Shown here one piece after another: positions 4,136 through 64,000 of a stretch of DNA of 64,000 nucleotides; position 1 is the first letter of the stretch, and the number at the start of each line of letters is the position of its first letter. The stretch covers positions 2,940,481-3,004,480 of the forward strand of contig BQUP01000002.1 in assembly GCA_022835595.1 (NCBI GenBank), given 5' to 3'. Made by a program: the position numbers and the translations under genes. The notes below the pieces were generated by a model. The model saw only the letters and a program-made list of their open reading frames with translations. It had not been told where the DNA came from and searched no databases. The stretch comes from Cystobasidium ongulense. Taxonomy: Eukaryota > Basidiomycota > Cystobasidiomycetes > Cystobasidiales > Cystobasidiaceae.

Positions 4136-5281
<1,146 letters not shown>

Positions 5282-5538: not shown

Positions 5539-7440
5539 CTAAGCTTCCTCCGCCCCGTCACTTTCACTACCGTCCGCCGAGTTGCGCGCATAGGTATACC
5601 AGTTGAAGACGGGTAGGCCAAGTGCATCACGATATTTTTGTATACTGGGAAGGTAGTAAACGGTCAGGAATGGGTTGTAGAGCTTGGGCTAGTATCTAGA
5701 CTCACTTTCGCGCTTTATCCTTGAGATCAACGTTCGAGCGTTGACTGTGATATAGACAGTATATCGAATCAGTCGACTGAGTAAGAGCTCTGTTGCACTA
5801 AATCAAACTTACGCTAGAATATCGCTCAACGAGCCACCGACACCGTGCTGTTCCTGGATATTTCTCCATCGTTTGTACTGATTCTTGGTGACATCGTTTG
5901 CAGTTTGGTCGCCAAGAGTAGCGCCTTCCATGTACATATCGTTCAACGCCAAGATAAGTGTGATTTCCTCATCTTCAGACCATGGATTGCCCCTAGCTCT
6001 ATCAGCTCCTCGTGTGCGGTGTGCAAGAAAGTTTTTATGCTGCTGGATAGTGAGCTTGCGTATTCTATCACGGATCCATTTCGGCTTGTTTGCTGCAGGG
6101 GTGGGCATAAGAGCGGAGGCACCTGGAGGCTGTGTACCTGTAGCTGGTACAGACCCGCTCGCAACTGGCGTAGCTGCAGCGGAAGTAGCAGTCGCCTTAG
6201 TCGCCTTTGCAGCTTTCTTCGCAGGTGTAGCTACACTGGTTGATGCAGTTGCAGTTTTGGCAGCAGTGCTTTTACGGGTGGTTGGCTTCTTGGCGGTGGA
6301 TGCTTTCATTTTCGATGAAGAACTGGCTGTGGTGGCTTCCGAGACCTTGCTAGCCGCTCCTTTCTGCTTTCTCGCCGATTTTCGTTTGGGTAGATCTTGC
6401 ACCAGGCTCTTCTGGACTTCCTCCTCCGCCTCCTCGGAGCTACTATCTGAAATACTATCGGGAACCGCTATCTCTTTGACAGGCACTGGTGAAATAGCTC
6501 TGGCCTTGCCTTTATCCTTTGCGCTGACTTTAACATTCTTTTGTTGGACCTTCTTCGGGGGTTCTTCGACTGCTTCATTCGCACGCTTACGCTTTTTGTC
6601 GCCCAGATGAGTCGTTGAAGCTGGAGGAGGGGGTGAATCGGATTCGACCGAAGGTGATCTGAAGAGTGCACTCTCTTGTTCGTCTTGTCCAACTGAATCT
6701 GCTTCTTGCGTGGCGAACAACGAATCCCTTATTTCCACTGCAGGTGTGGAACTCTCGCGTCTGGCTTTCAAAAGACGTCTACGCTTCTTGCTAGAGGTGG
6801 CGGGCAAAGGCAAACCACTCGGAGGTGGGGCAGTCGCATCGCCAGAGATAGTAGTGGCAGATTTCTGAGCGAGTGACTGTTTTTCAGCGATATCAGCCTT
6901 ACTGGGACGGCCTCTCTTCTTCTTGGGCGGTGATTGTTGCGCTGGAGTCGGGGTGGCCGTTTCGTCGCGACCTTGACTGCCTTCGGCGGTGGCCTGATGT
7001 GCGACAACAGCTCCGAGAGTGGGGGGTATAGGTGCAGTAAAAGCACCTTCAGACTGATCTGAAGCCTCGGCCAGCTGGTCCACCTCCTCGTCGTCGCTCA
7101 GCTGATCGTTTGTCGAGTTTCCAGATGCGCCGTTCAACAATGGAAGCAAGTCGGCCATCGTGACCGCCTCTGCCTGGCGTGGCGCTGTGCTGCGCACATA
7201 AGAGGTGACTTCTACTTCTTCTTGAATGACTCTAGACCCATTTGCCGCTTGACTGCTTCTGCCCTTCTTGCTGCGTCGAGCACGCTTGACGCTGGTTTGG
7301 TTCTGCTGACTCGCTTTAGCAGGCGAAGCTTCTTCATCCGAGGACAGCGAGTCTGTCACAGTCACATTGGCTCGCGTCGCTTCTACAGCCCTGGCTAGGT
7401 CGGATGCACTGTATGCAGACGTGCGAGCGCGCTTGGCCAT
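5539..7440 (-). CDS. Tbf1/TRF-like telobox Myb protein (shorter paralogue)
   Basis: Exons 5813-7440, 5706-5744 and 5539-5644 on the minus strand give about 590 residues; an in-frame ATG at 7485 would add 15. Most of the protein is Ala/Ser/Lys-rich and disordered, with basic nuclear-signal-like runs and an AT-hook-like KKRGRPSK. Near residues 480-570 is a Myb domain: NPWSEDEE, then YKRWRNIQEQHG, then RSNVDLKDKARN. The last is the telobox (consensus VDLKDKWRN), which reads TTAGGG-type repeats in Tbf1, Taz1 and TRF proteins. The second exon is only 39 bases and encodes the telobox; its splice to exon 3 splits the telobox Asn codon. The expected role is binding telomeric or TTAGGG-bearing promoter DNA. 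The N-terminal half lacks a clear dimerisation domain. It lies directly downstream of the larger telobox gene, same strand. Confidence 0.8.
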
Positions 7441-7926
7441 GCCGTCGTTGTTTCTGTTGATACTGTAATATTGGTGCAATTGCAAGCGGCACGTGCAGAA
7501 TAGTTTGGAATATCATACTTGTTGAAGAAGATACTTCAAGAGTCAAGATATGATACAACACGAGAAAAGGCTGGCTACTTATACAAGGTGAAAAGTCTTA
7601 ATGTGTGATTGCATAGCCCACTATGTAAGGTTCTATCGGGTCATCTGCATAGATCGTAGGATTGCTGTGTGTTCCAGCAGATGAGGCGTTAAGAAGGTTT
7701 GGCAAACATAAAGATGGCAAACGTAGATTTTGTATTGGTACGCTGTGCCATACGTGATTGTATACTTCTTGATATTATCTTGCCTCAAGTGCAGTAGCCA
7801 AGACCTCTGCAATACAATCATAACAGCTCGCATAATCAGCTCGCTAGCACGGGTCATTACGTCTACAAAGTCTCCAGGCTCGTTATACTAGGGCACTGTC
7901 ATATCTCAACCAGGTATCATCTCCAA
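7441..7926. promoter_or_regulatory. Intergenic between the two telobox genes
   Basis: It holds the 3' flank of the large telobox gene and the 5' flank of the small one. No TTAGGG array or other clear element was seen. Confidence 0.5.
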
Positions 7927-10900
7927 TTACGCCTCACTCGCATCCTGAAAATCTTCGATGTCTTCGTCGTCGTTGGTCGCGACACTCTTCCCTCTAGCGT
8001 TCTTCTTTTTGCGCTGCGGCTTGCGGACGATAGTACCGTCAATATCGAGAGCGCTTTGGAAGAAAGCAAAAGCGGGATTGGAAATTGGCGCGTTCTTGTG
8101 CAGGGCTCTAATACTGTTTATAGGGGAAAGATGGTCAGTAAGAGGCTGATGTCCGCTTGGACATGGACGATGGTTTCAACTTACTTCTCTCCTTTGTCTG
8201 ATGATTACGGGTGCAATGTACTAAAGTGCGTCAGTTCTGATACACGCAAAGCTGCTAGCTAAAGCCTCACCTTTTAATTGTGAACTTTTCCTGTTTTTCA
8301 AGTTCCGTGTGACAACGCCATTGATACCATGGTCCATCAAGACACTCTTGAATCTTCTATTTGCGAGCGGATTGGGCATAAGATCAAGCGCAACGAGGAA
8401 TGTTTTTCGTTCCGAGGCATCCCATGTAGATACTGCTGACGCGCGATCGTCTACATACTTGGGGTACAATAGCGCGATCTCATTATAGCGTCGCTTGATA
8501 TCGAGGAAGCGTTCACTTTGCTCTAGACCTTCTCTGTAAGCCTTGATGGCTTCTGCGAACAGTCTTCTCTTTTCAGCCAGCTGTTCCGGATCGTTGTTGA
8601 GGGTATCGTCATCTGGTGCATCTGCCGAATTGGCTAGCGGTGCTGGAGACGACCGTGCTAGAGAAGCAGCGCTTGCTTTGCCTTTGCCCTTCGTCGCTGC
8701 GGGGCCGGGTGCTGGTACCTTAGTCTTCGTCTTCGCGGAGCTAGACGTAGACGCTGCAGCCCGGCGCGGTGCGCCCCGTCGGCGGGGCAGGTCATGCGCT
8801 GCAGCTGAAGTGGATGCCACAGGTGCTGAGTCTTCATCCTCCTCTGCAGGCTCGCTATCAAGTTCGTCGACATATTCGTCTTGCAGCTCTTGCGCTAGCC
8901 TGCGTTCAGGTGTACCCAAATCGTTCAGATCGCTTCGACCATCCCCATCTACTTCCGAGCCAATATGGTCTTCGCTCGATGCCAACTGTGTCGAGTCATG
9001 CTGTGTGACTTTTCTGGGTCTGCCTTTTCGGGCCGGTAGGGTCATTCGAGAAGTAACTTGTTCAGGGTCAGCTGTAGCGGCTTGCTTCGCGCGTCCTTTC
9101 CCCTTCGCTGCTTTCGAAGCTGCTTTTTCTCTGGCGGATTGTCTAGTCGAGGCGACACCAGTTTCACCTCCTGTACCATCACTGCCCTCTTCTTGCGAGT
9201 CTTCTGGCTCGACATATTGGAAGGCTTTACGGCGGGTTCGTGGACCCGTCAATTGCGGTGGAGCAGATGAAAGGATGTCACGAGAGGAAGGTGGAAGATC
9301 ATAATCTGTCGTATCTCCGTTTGGCTCATCTGCATCTTCATGATTAGTTGCGGCTGGAGGTGGACCTGTCGACTTGCGAGCAGCTCGAGTTTTGCTGACA
9401 CTGCCTTTAGCGATTGAGCCCTTGGTAGTCGCTGCCGGCGATGACATCGAGATCTTCTCAGCGTCGTCTTGTTTCGCAAACCAGCTTATGAAATAACAGA
9501 CGCAGAGTTAGCGCGATCGCTATGCTGGGATGTGGAAAATAAAGCACCTACTCTGCTTTTTTCTTCGGAGGTCTGCCTCTACGACGAGGCGCAGCCGGGG
9601 TCGTTTCTTCGACAGCGGGAGCAGTCGATTCTGCCAAGGAGACATCGCCTTCCCCATCTGCTCCCAGGCCCGATTGACCAGTAGCCTCATCCTCTTCCAT
9701 CCGGATGTCACTCTGTTCTGGAGCGGGTGAATCTCTGGCAAGAGTATCTTGAGCAGCATTTGGTGTCGGGACTTCAGAGATATCCACTTCCTCCCCAACA
9801 ATTTGTTCAAACGAATCTATTGCCTCGTCTGCTTGCTGAATAAGCTCATCGTATATACTATCATCGAATGATTGAGGATTTGCAAGGCTAGGTGAAGGGG
9901 CATCAGATCGACCAGGTACAGCTTGAGTAGCCTGACTTTCTTGCTCTTCTTCCAGGACGGGTTCCTGTTCTGCATACGTCGTTATGTCAGCGTAGCTGCC
10001 TGCGTCTTCATGCATAGGCGCCTCGTGCCCTCCTGCACTCTCCAGCTCGTTGCCCCAGAACCCGTGCGTTGCCGTTTCTTCCTGCGCTCCTGATGTATCT
10101 TCTAATCCTCGCGTCATGCCCTCAGGCTCTTGACTTCCACCCGGTGAATCAATTTGACTCTCGCCTTGTGCGGCTGCTTGAGACTCGATTTGAGTCTCAA
10201 GGAAGACGCCCAAAGCAGATCGATCCAGTAGATTACTTTGCACAGCTTGAGTTTCGGGGAATTGCGTTTCAACTGTCACCTCTTCTTCGATGACTTCTTC
10301 TTCAATGACCATAGTGTCGTCCTCGTTAACAGACTCCTGCATACTGTTTTCCCCGCTTCCCCCTTCCGCAACATCTCCCTCTTCCTCCTCACTAGCAGGA
10401 ACAACCGAAGAGCGTGTAATGAGAACATTCTCGACCTCTTCATCAGAGTCATCCTCGTTGTAACTCTGCTGCTGACTATTGTCTTGTACTGCTGAAGTAC
10501 CAACAGCTTGGAAGGCTCTAGCAGAAGTAGTAGCCATAGGAAGGGATCTTCTGACTGGACTTGATTTCCGAGCTTGCCTCAACTGATTTTTCAAGCCTTG
10601 ATAAGGTGAACCTGGCTGTTGTGGTATTTGAGGAGGTGGTGCAGATTGACGACGTGCTTGATCCACTTTCAAACGTTTTCGAGCAATATGCTCGTAGTAT
10701 TTAGATGGCGATGAAGCTATTGTGCTTCCTTGACGTATCACAGGTCTTTTGAGGTGGGCAAAGACACGCTTAACATGCTTGAGGAAAGAAGCTAGGAATG
10801 ACTCGTATGGATATTCTGCAAGTAAATCATCAATATCCGTTTGCCCGCTTAGTATCTGCAATAAACGATGGTAGAGATTAGCTTGTGCGAACCGCGCGAG

Positions 10901-12252
10901 ATGGAAGGGTAAGGAATCAAACCTTCACTTACAGTCGCCAAAACTTGAGCAGCTTTCTGTGAATATTCATCCCAAAGTGCTTCTTGTCCATTATCGACAT
11001 ATCTCAAAGCTAGATCTTGATCGTCGTCCATCAAGTCTTCATTGTCCTCTTCCAAGATTTCGCTCGCAACTCTAGCTCTAGCAAGAACAAGTTGTATTTT
11101 CAATTTCAATTGTAATTCCAACACTTGAAGACCCAACCTCAATCCAAGAGGAACAATAGAAGAAGCAAAGTTCTCAATAGCTACTGGTAGACCTTGTTTT
11201 AATGCTTCTGCGTCTTCCGTATCACTGAATAGCAATAAATAGGTTACGATATCGATTAGTTCTACGATTGAGAAGTCTGGGCCTGCTTGTTTTGTTGCAA
11301 GCTCGAAAGTGTCGAGTAGGACCCGTTCGATGCGAGTCTCGTGCTCGGGCGTCGACAGTCCATTGGAAGGTTGCATGGCTGTTATCGCAAAGAGTATATG
11401 TCAGTCTCTCTGCTCCGAATGTCGGTGACGGTGCACGTTAGAGCGGAGAATGCAGAACAGCAACTCACAACTCAAGAAGCTCGACAAGGTGTCCTTGTCC
11501 TCCAGCGATAGATGTACTGCATCGTCCTCCATGGCGCTTTCAAGTATACGACGCGCTTGACGCGCCAGCTGTCTCAATGATAATGATTCAGTAGTAGTAG
11601 CTCTGGGAGTACCACTTGCATCGCGCCTCGAAGATGAAGATGGCGCGTTCTTCCGTTTCAAAGAGGATCCATTGCTTTGAGATGCGCTTCTGACAGGTAC
11701 CCAGATAGTCTCATCGCCTTCCTCTTCCTCTTCGTCCTCGATGGCATTGGTATCAACTGCTGCCATTCTCTGGCTTGCCTTTGCAGTCTCGAATTGCAAT
11801 TCATCGTCCTCGCTGTCGCTACTGACATCGCGATGGCTAGCAGGAGCGACTGCAAGTCGACTAGCAGAAGAGGTAATTGCAAGTTCATCTTCACTTTCGC
11901 TTGTCGTTTCTTCTTCATTACGTGTGAATGTAGCTCTTGCGACAGCTTGTAAAGCACGTTTCTTAGCAGCTGAAGAAACTGGGTTTGTCGTTTTTCTTGC
12001 ACTTCTAGCTGGTCTGAAAGGTCGTTTGCCTGAAGTAGAAGTAGCGATACTGATCATAGTAGTATTGTTTGTAGTTGTTGAAGTCTCTCGTTTTCGTGGG
12101 CTCGCTCGTCTCCTCGTCGTCTCGCCCTCGCTCTCTGATGGAAGAGCGGATCCTTCTCCAGCACTTGAAGATGCTATCACGACCTCGCTCTCCGAAACTG
12201 ACGAGTCTGATACTGTTCCATCTGCGCGGCCCCGCGCGCGTGTACGCGCCAT
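7927..12252 (-). CDS. Large TRF/Tbf1-like telobox Myb protein with AT-hooks
   Basis: Six exons on the minus strand (11469-12252, 10933-11378, 9552-10855, 8271-9484, 8185-8197, 7927-8113) give 1315 residues; every junction keeps frame. Residues 1-220 are Ser/Arg-rich. About 225-460 is a mainly helical block (for example IVELIDIVTYLLLFS and LRLGLQVLELQLKLKIQLV) in the place where TRF and Taz1 proteins have their TRFH dimerisation domain; that match is inferred from position and build. A long acidic stretch follows, then AT-hooks RRRGRPPKKK (about 835) and ARKGRPRK (about 1000). The end, about 1190-1262, is Myb-like: STWDASERKTF, HGINGVVTRNLKNR, then SSQLKDKGENI, a diverged telobox. A 13-base microexon encodes DKGE of the telobox. 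The likely role is double-stranded telomere binding. A plain chromatin architectural protein is the alternative. Confidence 0.8.
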
Positions 12253-61460: not shown

Positions 61461-64000
61461 CTTGGGGCGCAGCGGTGTAAGAGGGTGCTTGAAATGACGA
61501 AATGCAGCGTCTAGACCCTGGCTGTCCAGTAGTAAGCGCTAGTGTAAGGCAGTTTGTCGTCTCTTTGCTGTATGACCTTCTAAGTTGGTCGCGTTGTCGC
61601 GCTCAAGCTGTTGCTGTTGCTGATCTTGTGAAGGACGACGAAAGCAGACAGCTAGCGCTGCGCAATGATGTATCTGTGTGTAGGCGTGCTTTCACTTCTC
61701 TCTATGCTTGCTATCCCCTTCTATTCTATTCTATTCTATCCGGTCCTGTCCTGTCTGATCGTCTGGCCTCGACTAGTAGACGCGTTTGAAGGGAAATGTC
61801 CAGTAGGTGGAGGACAAACGTTCTCTCCTGACCGGACAGACGTAAACCTGTGTGTACTGCGAAGGTCAAGTTTATGTTTTCGATGCCTGAGTTCGTCTTG
61901 CTTGCTTGACTGGTTGGAACAGATCCGAGCTGCATGCGCACTGCAGGATTGCCCTGCTCGAATTCTTGACCACCTAAAGTCAGAAGCAGCAAACAGGAAT
62001 GGCTAAGATTACTGAATGTTCTAGCTCAAGCACAGACGTGAAGGCATCCTGACGGTATCGCTGCTCTACTACCAGCTCACTAGCGTACGAAAGCCGAAAG
62101 CCGTGATCTGGATCCTAGACGTGTCATGTACGTCCAGATGAAATACTACATGAAACACTATCGATTGTAAGCGATATTCACGGGAAGGCTGCTTTGATGC
62201 TACAGATGACATTTTGTCTCTGCTCATCCCATCAAGGTCTTCCCGGGATACTCGCACCATCACCTCCGCAAACCGCCACAACTCGAGGCCTGCAGATCTA
62301 GCTTCCTGTCGTTTTTTCCGATCCTTCAGCGAAGATAGAAAGCTAGAGACGCGACACTGACCTTTTCTCGCTTGGATCTCTTCTTGTTACGCCGGCTCTT
62401 TGGCTTTCAATCAGAACTTATGGCTGCTGCAGTGGACGAAGGTAGTTTGGCCCTCACCCTAATGGTCTTTTCAGAGAGATCAAACTTTTAGGGTTATGAA
62501 GCTCTCACTCAAGATATCCTCTCGCTGCGCTACATCTGGTCCCAATGGCCCACATCATTAACCTCCCGTTGTTCCAGCTATAGCATGTGAGCGATAAGAA
62601 CTCGGGCCTGATGCTGAAGTAGAGGAATTCTGTGACAATGGCTCTTTACGAGGGACTGGCCAAATTTCGATGCGATTTCAGCCTTCTTAGTCTACTTCTT
62701 CTAGCGTATGGTATGATGGCACGCTCCCCGGAACATTCTAGCCAGGCGTCGCATGCGAAGACCTGATGCAGCACATTGGGGGGTCTCCGGGATGGCATTG
62801 GGCTCAATAGAGAGAGAATTACAACACTTGTGACATCCTTGTCTGGTTGCGGACTCCGCAATGTCCGTCGGACGTTTGACACATCAGATTACTGAACATG
62901 GATATTGCTCGAGCCACATGTCAGACAGCTGCATCTCTCCACCAGCTTCAGAAAGACTGTCCTGTCAGGCTTATTCCCCAGCTTGCTATTACCCAACGAT
63001 TGGCCAGTACTGCTTAACAAAAGTCTGCAACTGGCCTGGCCCACTACGTCTATCAATTCTGGCAATGCAGGGCAACAGGTAGGTAATGCTACAGCTTCGA
63101 TTCTACGGGTTATCTGTCGACGCTGGCCGCTGCGTAGACTACTATAGTGCGTATGCAGAGCTGCGAACCTCGTTCCGACAGGCCGGCTCAATCTTTCCCT
63201 TCCTCCGAACCCGCCCGGACATCGTGTAATCAAAAGAGCCCATCGCACATATTCTGGAAGAGCTGCAGATCAGAAAGATGCACCTCCTGCCTCCCCTCCT
63301 GGACTTTCTTATGCACAGAAGTCGTGATGCTGCGGTGATGAAGTCCGGCATTGGCACCGTCCTTGGCTCTTGCAAGGTTTAGATCCTGAATGAGCGGTGG
63401 GGCGGTCCTCTACCGTTAGTGAAAACGAGTAAGCTTTGTCCTTTCATTTTGCCCTCTCCCAAACAGTCTGGCTCTATCCCATTGAGAGGTGCTCCAAAAG
63501 CCTCAACACCATAGGCACGCCAAGCATAGATGTTTCACTATCAACATTTTGTCCATTCTATGATGATTAAGACGTGCGGTAGCTTCCGATGTGGACTCCA
63601 GCTACTGTTTTCTGATTTTCGGCGGGCACAGTGCGCGGACTGGTCAGTAAAGCTTCCCGGAGGCGCAATTCACGTTCAGTACAAAGTATGAAGGCTTTCT
63701 TCGTGAAATCCTAGTGAGCTTGAAAGACCTTGTCAGACCATCGCGAATGAGCTTGAAAGACCTTTTAAGAACGGATTCGCTATAGCCATGTGTGTAGCAC
63801 GATCAATAGCACGCTGTTTATTCGAATTACGGAAAGCAATTCGGGAAGGATGCCCTCTACCGTAGTAGGCACAAAACAGTAGAGTCTACCAGAAGAGTGC
63901 TTGCATCGTCGCTGTGATTGCTTGCTTTGTATACTCTTGACAGTGTGTTGGCACGCGATTGACTGACCCGCTGAACTGCTCTACGTCTCTTTCCTCCTGC
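61461..64000. other. Gene-poor stretch upstream of Cla4
   Basis: 2.5 kb with only short frames on both strands and no family likeness. The first part is likely promoter and 5' leader of Cla4. It has a (CTATT)4 run at 61721-61739 and a 17-base direct repeat at 63715 and 63748. A heavily split gene or the start of one past the window edge cannot be excluded. Confidence 0.5.
63715..63764. repeat. Short direct repeat, 33-base period
   Basis: The 17-base string TGAGCTTGAAAGACCTT occurs at 63715-63731 and 63748-63764. Function unknown. Confidence 0.9.

Follow-up and report, generated by a model that had tools for sequence, protein, structure and literature searches.

Two adjacent telobox Myb genes of the Tbf1/TRF kind in Cystobasidium ongulense, one with an apparently altered recognition helix

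Trf1/Tbf1 of Schizosaccharomyces pombe and Tbf1 of Saccharomyces cerevisiae are single-copy telobox Myb proteins. According to excerpts of PMC4839565, Tbf1 of S. cerevisiae is a transcription factor and subtelomere binder for which a function at native telomeres is called unlikely, and Pneumocystis jiroveci carries a further Tbf1-like protein named Tbf-x. Ustilago maydis possesses Tay1 and an essential Trf2 at regular TTAGGG repeats (PMC7952879 and PMC7744550, excerpts). Its Trf2 (UmTrf2/UmTbf1) was described in the same excerpts of PMC7744550 as a protein of 1528 aa with a C-terminal Myb that carries inserts, a linker of about 600 aa, a TRFH domain and conserved contact residues. Tay1, likewise a fungal Myb binder of duplex telomeres, has two Mybs near the N-terminus (excerpts of PMC7952879). 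In human TRF1 the K, D and R of the recognition helix were critical and R425V alone abolished binding, while the telobox-type Myb of TERB1, a mammalian meiotic telomere protein, lacks TRF contact residues (excerpts of PMC8867601). Among the titles and abstract openings of the top-ranked literature matches, no account was found of a linked telobox pair, let alone of one with an altered recognition helix, or of telomeres as irregular as those reported below.

The window, a stretch of 64,000 nucleotides of the C. ongulense genome, contained two minus-strand coding sequences whose exact outer ends were positions 5539 and 12252 (Table 1). The small protein was mostly low-complexity by look, with the Myb close to its C-terminus. 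In the large protein a helical block at about residues 225-470 was followed by a long middle part of low complexity, with the Myb close to the C-terminus. The related sequences, which look like unspliced fragments, comprised three proteins for the small gene (P0001-P0003; 88, 69 and 52% identity) and 11 pieces for the large gene (exon 2 in P0004-P0008, exon 4 in P0009-P0013 and exon 3 in P0014). The splicing of both genes was predicted from the sequence and from the reading frames of these relatives. All seven introns had GT..AG ends and lengths of 61-90 nt, and each held a CTRAY branch-like site 23-37 nt upstream of its 3' end. In the protein alignment of relatives, P0001 and P0003 stopped, and P0002 diverged, at the place of the first intron of the small gene. 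P0012 and P0013 ran past the fourth intron of the large gene into DKGEK and then ended, as would be expected, judging from the protein letters, if an AA/GTAA donor had been retained.

Table 1. Positions of the two genes and their predicted features in the window
Feature	Position	Strand	Remarks
Small gene	5539-7440	minus	590 aa, 3 exons
Small gene exon 1	5813..7440	minus	start codon at 7440; Myb from about 5988
Small gene exon 2	5706..5744	minus	39 nt; telobox NVDLKDKAR + AA of Asn; pattern match C2:2946186-2946202
Small gene last intron	5645..5705	minus	61 nt, phase 2; telobox Asn codon split AA/T
Small gene exon 3	5539..5644	minus	
AT-hook-like stretch, small protein residues 173-182	6895..6924	minus	E 0.035, 14.4 bits, below Pfam cut-off of 17.4
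Large gene	7927-12252	minus	1315 aa, 6 exons
Large gene exon 1	11469..12252	minus	
Large gene exon 2	10933..11378	minus	helical block; 62-95% identity to 5 relatives
Large gene exon 3	9552..10855	minus	
Large gene exon 4	8271..9484	minus	Myb from about 8430; last residues SQLK
Large gene exon 5	8185..8197	minus	13 nt; DKGE + AA of Asn; DKGE also in P0012, P0013
Large gene last intron	8114..8184	minus	71 nt, phase 2; telobox Asn codon split AA/T
Large gene exon 6	7927..8113	minus	
Candidate TRFH-like helical region, large protein residues about 225-470	10676..11580	minus	over exons 1-3; low-confidence models

The original prediction that both genes end in a telobox Myb was confirmed by a phmmer search of the PDB, in which solved Tbf1-type Mybs matched both proteins; Pfam reported a Myb in neither, at E values up to 10. 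The small Myb matched 6k5u and 8ynu ('Telomeric DNA-binding factor trf1') with E 6.6e-6 and 8x6d (TBF1) with 3.4e-4. The best value of the large Myb was 0.0014 (8x6d), followed by 0.0094 and 0.026. The G.GG.....L..R..V.LKDKARN stretch of Tbf1-type Mybs was in register with both proteins, and by their Myb sequence both are of the Tbf1/TRF telobox kind. Paired N-terminal Mybs of the Tay1 type were not found by the Pfam and PDB searches, each protein having one C-terminal Myb instead.

The specificity of the two Mybs was considered through V418, K421, D422 and R425 of TRF1 (numbering of the full-length chain 8ox1_L), which we take to be base contacts. All four were retained in the small protein (V, K, D and R of VDLKDKAR). 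In SQLKDKGE of the large protein, as read across a 13-nt predicted exon, K and D were retained, V418 was replaced by S and R425 by E. Glu occupied the R425 site in all three sequences with a readable exon (the window, P0012 and P0013), the last two being two of the five exon-4 relatives, as in the other three the site falls beyond the frame; the Mybs of P0012 and P0013 are identical, and hence amount to about one further case of the R-to-E change. The large protein thus appears to be without a residue that is key to reading normal telomere DNA. The S. pombe and S. cerevisiae proteins share its Myb type and the extended stretch before the telobox, but keep V, K, D and R. TERB1 belongs to another protein family and has K, D and R all changed (excerpts of PMC8867601), whereas V and R are changed in the large protein.

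It was also observed that in both genes the Myb was better conserved than the rest of the compared exons. In gap-free columns, 38 of 53 Myb columns of large exon 4 were invariant against 73 of 230 before the Myb, and 26 of 57 Myb columns of small exon 1 against 110 of 434. Leaving out gapped columns removed 121 of the 351 columns that precede the large Myb, a part in which P0009 is incomplete, and 52 of the 486 that precede the small Myb. That the large Myb is so well conserved and yet without R425 points to a different specificity or to protein binding, the latter having been proposed for TERB1.

These results bear on the roles originally proposed, in which telomere capping falls to the large protein and the binding of subtelomeric or promoter sites to the small one. 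For DNA reading the assignment is possibly reversed, since the small protein retains all contacts and the large one is without two of them. Such an arrangement, with the large protein as a telomere-capping Trf2 orthologue with a working Myb, would agree with the general build shared with U. maydis Trf2 (excerpts of PMC7744550), namely a long protein with a C-terminal Myb, a long linker and Myb inserts, and with the conservation of both the large Myb and the helical exon 2, in which 68 of 148 positions were invariant in six rows (hand count). The changes of V418 to S and R425 to E in the recognition helix argue against it, as does the failure of PDB phmmer, hhalign and Foldseek to match a TRFH domain, and we consider it unlikely. 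Because of the same two changes the large protein was filed as Tbf1/TRF-related rather than as a Trf2 orthologue. It differs from U. maydis Trf2 also in its irregular telomere repeat, in the telobox paralogue that adjoins it, and in that the TRFH of the large protein is a candidate region only.

The TRFH-like block that had been predicted for the large protein stays a candidate. AF2 models of P0006 (the end of exon 1 with exon 2) and of the gene's own exon 2 were helical throughout, at low confidence (pLDDT 40.7 and 50.8). The candidate region gave no match in Pfam or in a phmmer search of PDB sequences, hhalign against TRF1/TRF2 returned a probability of 0.5%, and Foldseek with the model of pLDDT 50.8 found no match. 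PF08558 matched nothing in the genome and none of 14 controls either, and was hence uninformative. With residues 225-475 as a full-length query, no relatives were found among 5863 candidates at E values of up to 1, the exon pieces having likely been dropped on length.

The two genes are co-oriented neighbours in the window, as predicted, and their linkage looks conserved in one relative. For P0002, P0008, P0011 and P0014 alike, the longest contig measured 66,539 bases (P0008 sits on two contigs), and this common figure makes it very probable, matched on size alone, that both genes lie on one contig there. P0007 and P0010 shared 7,141 bases as the longest contig. For P0001 (7,204 bases) and P0003 (17,573 bases) there was no large-gene partner on a contig of the same size among the matches listed.

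According to the predicted splicing, an intron splits the Asn codon of the telobox in the same phase in both genes, as had been claimed. The telobox blocks of the two proteins aligned gap-free over 33 residues, 11 of them identical, and the shared intron is therefore placed at a homologous site. Only this 3'-side intron was common, however, as the 5'-side introns lay at different positions. With two introns per gene placed uniformly, the probability of one exact coincidence by chance was 0.018-0.040; splice-site preference would raise this figure, and the coincidence alone is thus only suggestive. The two Mybs were identical at 20 of 74 residues. The small Myb was identical to S. pombe Trf1 at 22 and to S. 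cerevisiae Tbf1 at 21 of 56 residues, the large Myb at 18 and 19 of 56, respectively. A Myb tree paired the small and large proteins at 88/85, below the tool's mark for strong support; the sampling was thin, with 53 columns and 14 rows, of which 13 differed.

The tandem duplication proposed at the outset was left weak by these data. Linkage, the same split codon and the tree grouping point to it and speak against the alternative that the intron was already present in the common ancestor of all fungal Tbf1/TRF genes, or was gained twice at a position that favours splicing, with the adjacency of the genes owing to something other than tandem duplication. This alternative is consistent with each Myb resembling the yeast Tbf1 Mybs no less than it resembles its neighbour, and with a chance coincidence of 2-4% before splice-site preference; we hold it to be somewhat unlikely. 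A duplication, if tandem, would be old.

Basidiomycete telomeres consist mainly of TTAGGG, with some variants (excerpts of PMC12506658 and PMC10100673). In C. ongulense, telomere arrays of 40-288 bp were found at 6 of 38 contig ends (the starts of C4, C5, C6 and C9 and the ends of C1 and C17), and four contig starts read N. Exact TTAGGG accounted for 3 of the 137 units, T(3-5)AG(3-4) for 110 and T(2-5)AG(3-4) for 123; the commonest units were TTTAGGGG (31), TTTTAGGGG (25) and TTTTAGGG (20), and (TTAGGG)3 had no exact match in the genome. All 26 matches of CCYTAAAACCCCTA lay in array-bearing contig ends and none was internal, the reversed control giving 0. Within 1144 bp of arrays, TAGGGTT occurred 44 times (38 per kb) and TAGGGGTT 79 times, and TAGGGTTA was absent. 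The irregularity of the repeat makes a special telomere system more likely, and to this extent the originally suggested lineage-specific system gained ground. The telomere arrays were the only matches in a search for a telomerase RNA template, and Telomerase_RBD (TERT) matches were located at C4:616876-617373. Contig C2 ends at window position 64000, where no telomere array was present. The contig-end pairs L007/L013, L008/L028 and L019/L035 opened with nearly identical sequence, either shared repeats or subtelomeric blocks.

AT-hooks are usually considered to require A/T runs of about 4 bases. In the arrays, 121 of 141 A/T runs had at least 4 bases, and these long runs led us to speculate on an AT-hook in the small protein, in which RGRPSKADIA of the AT-hook-like stretch was invariant in all four aligned proteins.

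A Rap1-like frame of 483 aa was found at C2:769012-770463 (L107:713-2164, minus), with Myb_Rap1 and Rap1_C over the cut-offs and BRCT matches below them. Its Myb matched S. cerevisiae Rap1 chains with E 1.4e-7 versus 0.055 for human RAP1. The principal duplex telomere binder could accordingly be Rap1, the situation known from budding yeasts, with both Tbf1-like proteins serving as transcription or subtelomere factors. The domain content of the frame, the affinity of its Myb and the loss of a regular TTAGGG repeat favour this reading, but the frame showed a single Myb, as do the Rap1 proteins that depend on TRF2 or Taz1 for recruitment, and TAGGGTT is still frequent in the arrays. We regard it as rather unlikely. 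The subtelomeric and transcriptional role of S. cerevisiae Tbf1 counts against a telomere location of the two proteins.

Our preferred reading, held tentatively and at slightly less than an even chance, is that the two genes form an old, linked pair of Tbf1/TRF-type paralogues, in which the small protein is a DNA reader and the large one has a scaffold-like role and an altered Myb. The small protein would read TAGGGTT-type sites through its normal recognition helix, perhaps aided on T-rich DNA by the AT-hook-like stretch. The large protein, which resembles U. maydis Trf2 in build also through a helical block in its N-terminal third, would be a scaffold or dimeriser whose Myb no longer reads canonical TTAGGG and may recognize an altered site or bind protein as proposed for TERB1. 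Both would most likely act at chromosome ends together with Rap1, a location that we infer, and a promoter role may also apply. It is quite unlikely, although conceivable, that TRF function was split between a small reader, whose telobox and AT-hook serve TAGGGTT close to T-rich DNA, and a large scaffold with a Myb that the change of R425 to E adapted to TAGGGGTT or to a protein partner, the split being coupled to a repeat grown irregular and longer in T and G. How duplex telomere proteins track a changing repeat is an open question on which the linked pair bears. An intact and an altered recognition helix side by side in a genome with irregular repeats constitute a natural experiment that is directly testable by EMSA.

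Further, the genome was searched for other telobox Mybs. Inspection of the 16 PF00249 matches revealed no telobox, and neither study gene was among them; hence intron-split Mybs, Tay1 for instance, can escape this search. The KDKxRN pattern gave 35 matches against 24 in the reversed control, one being the small gene and the remainder judged on their printed letters only. The only other KDKAR-coding match, C7:1077288, was rejected because it lies in a charged stretch that is unrelated and not preceded by a Myb. An LK[DN][KR]WR-type pattern had five matches, none credible, against five in the control. The Mybs of human TRF1 and S. pombe Trf1 found no match in the genome, and as the S. pombe query missed even both study genes, the two queries were uninformative. 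Mating_C, tried as a marker of Basidiomycota, gave no match, and none in its controls either. In the window, Rfam gave no match at gathering scores. A plus-strand neighbouring frame at window positions 4967-5278 matched Methyltransf_4 with E 5e-30, which we take to be the tRNA m7G methyltransferase kind.
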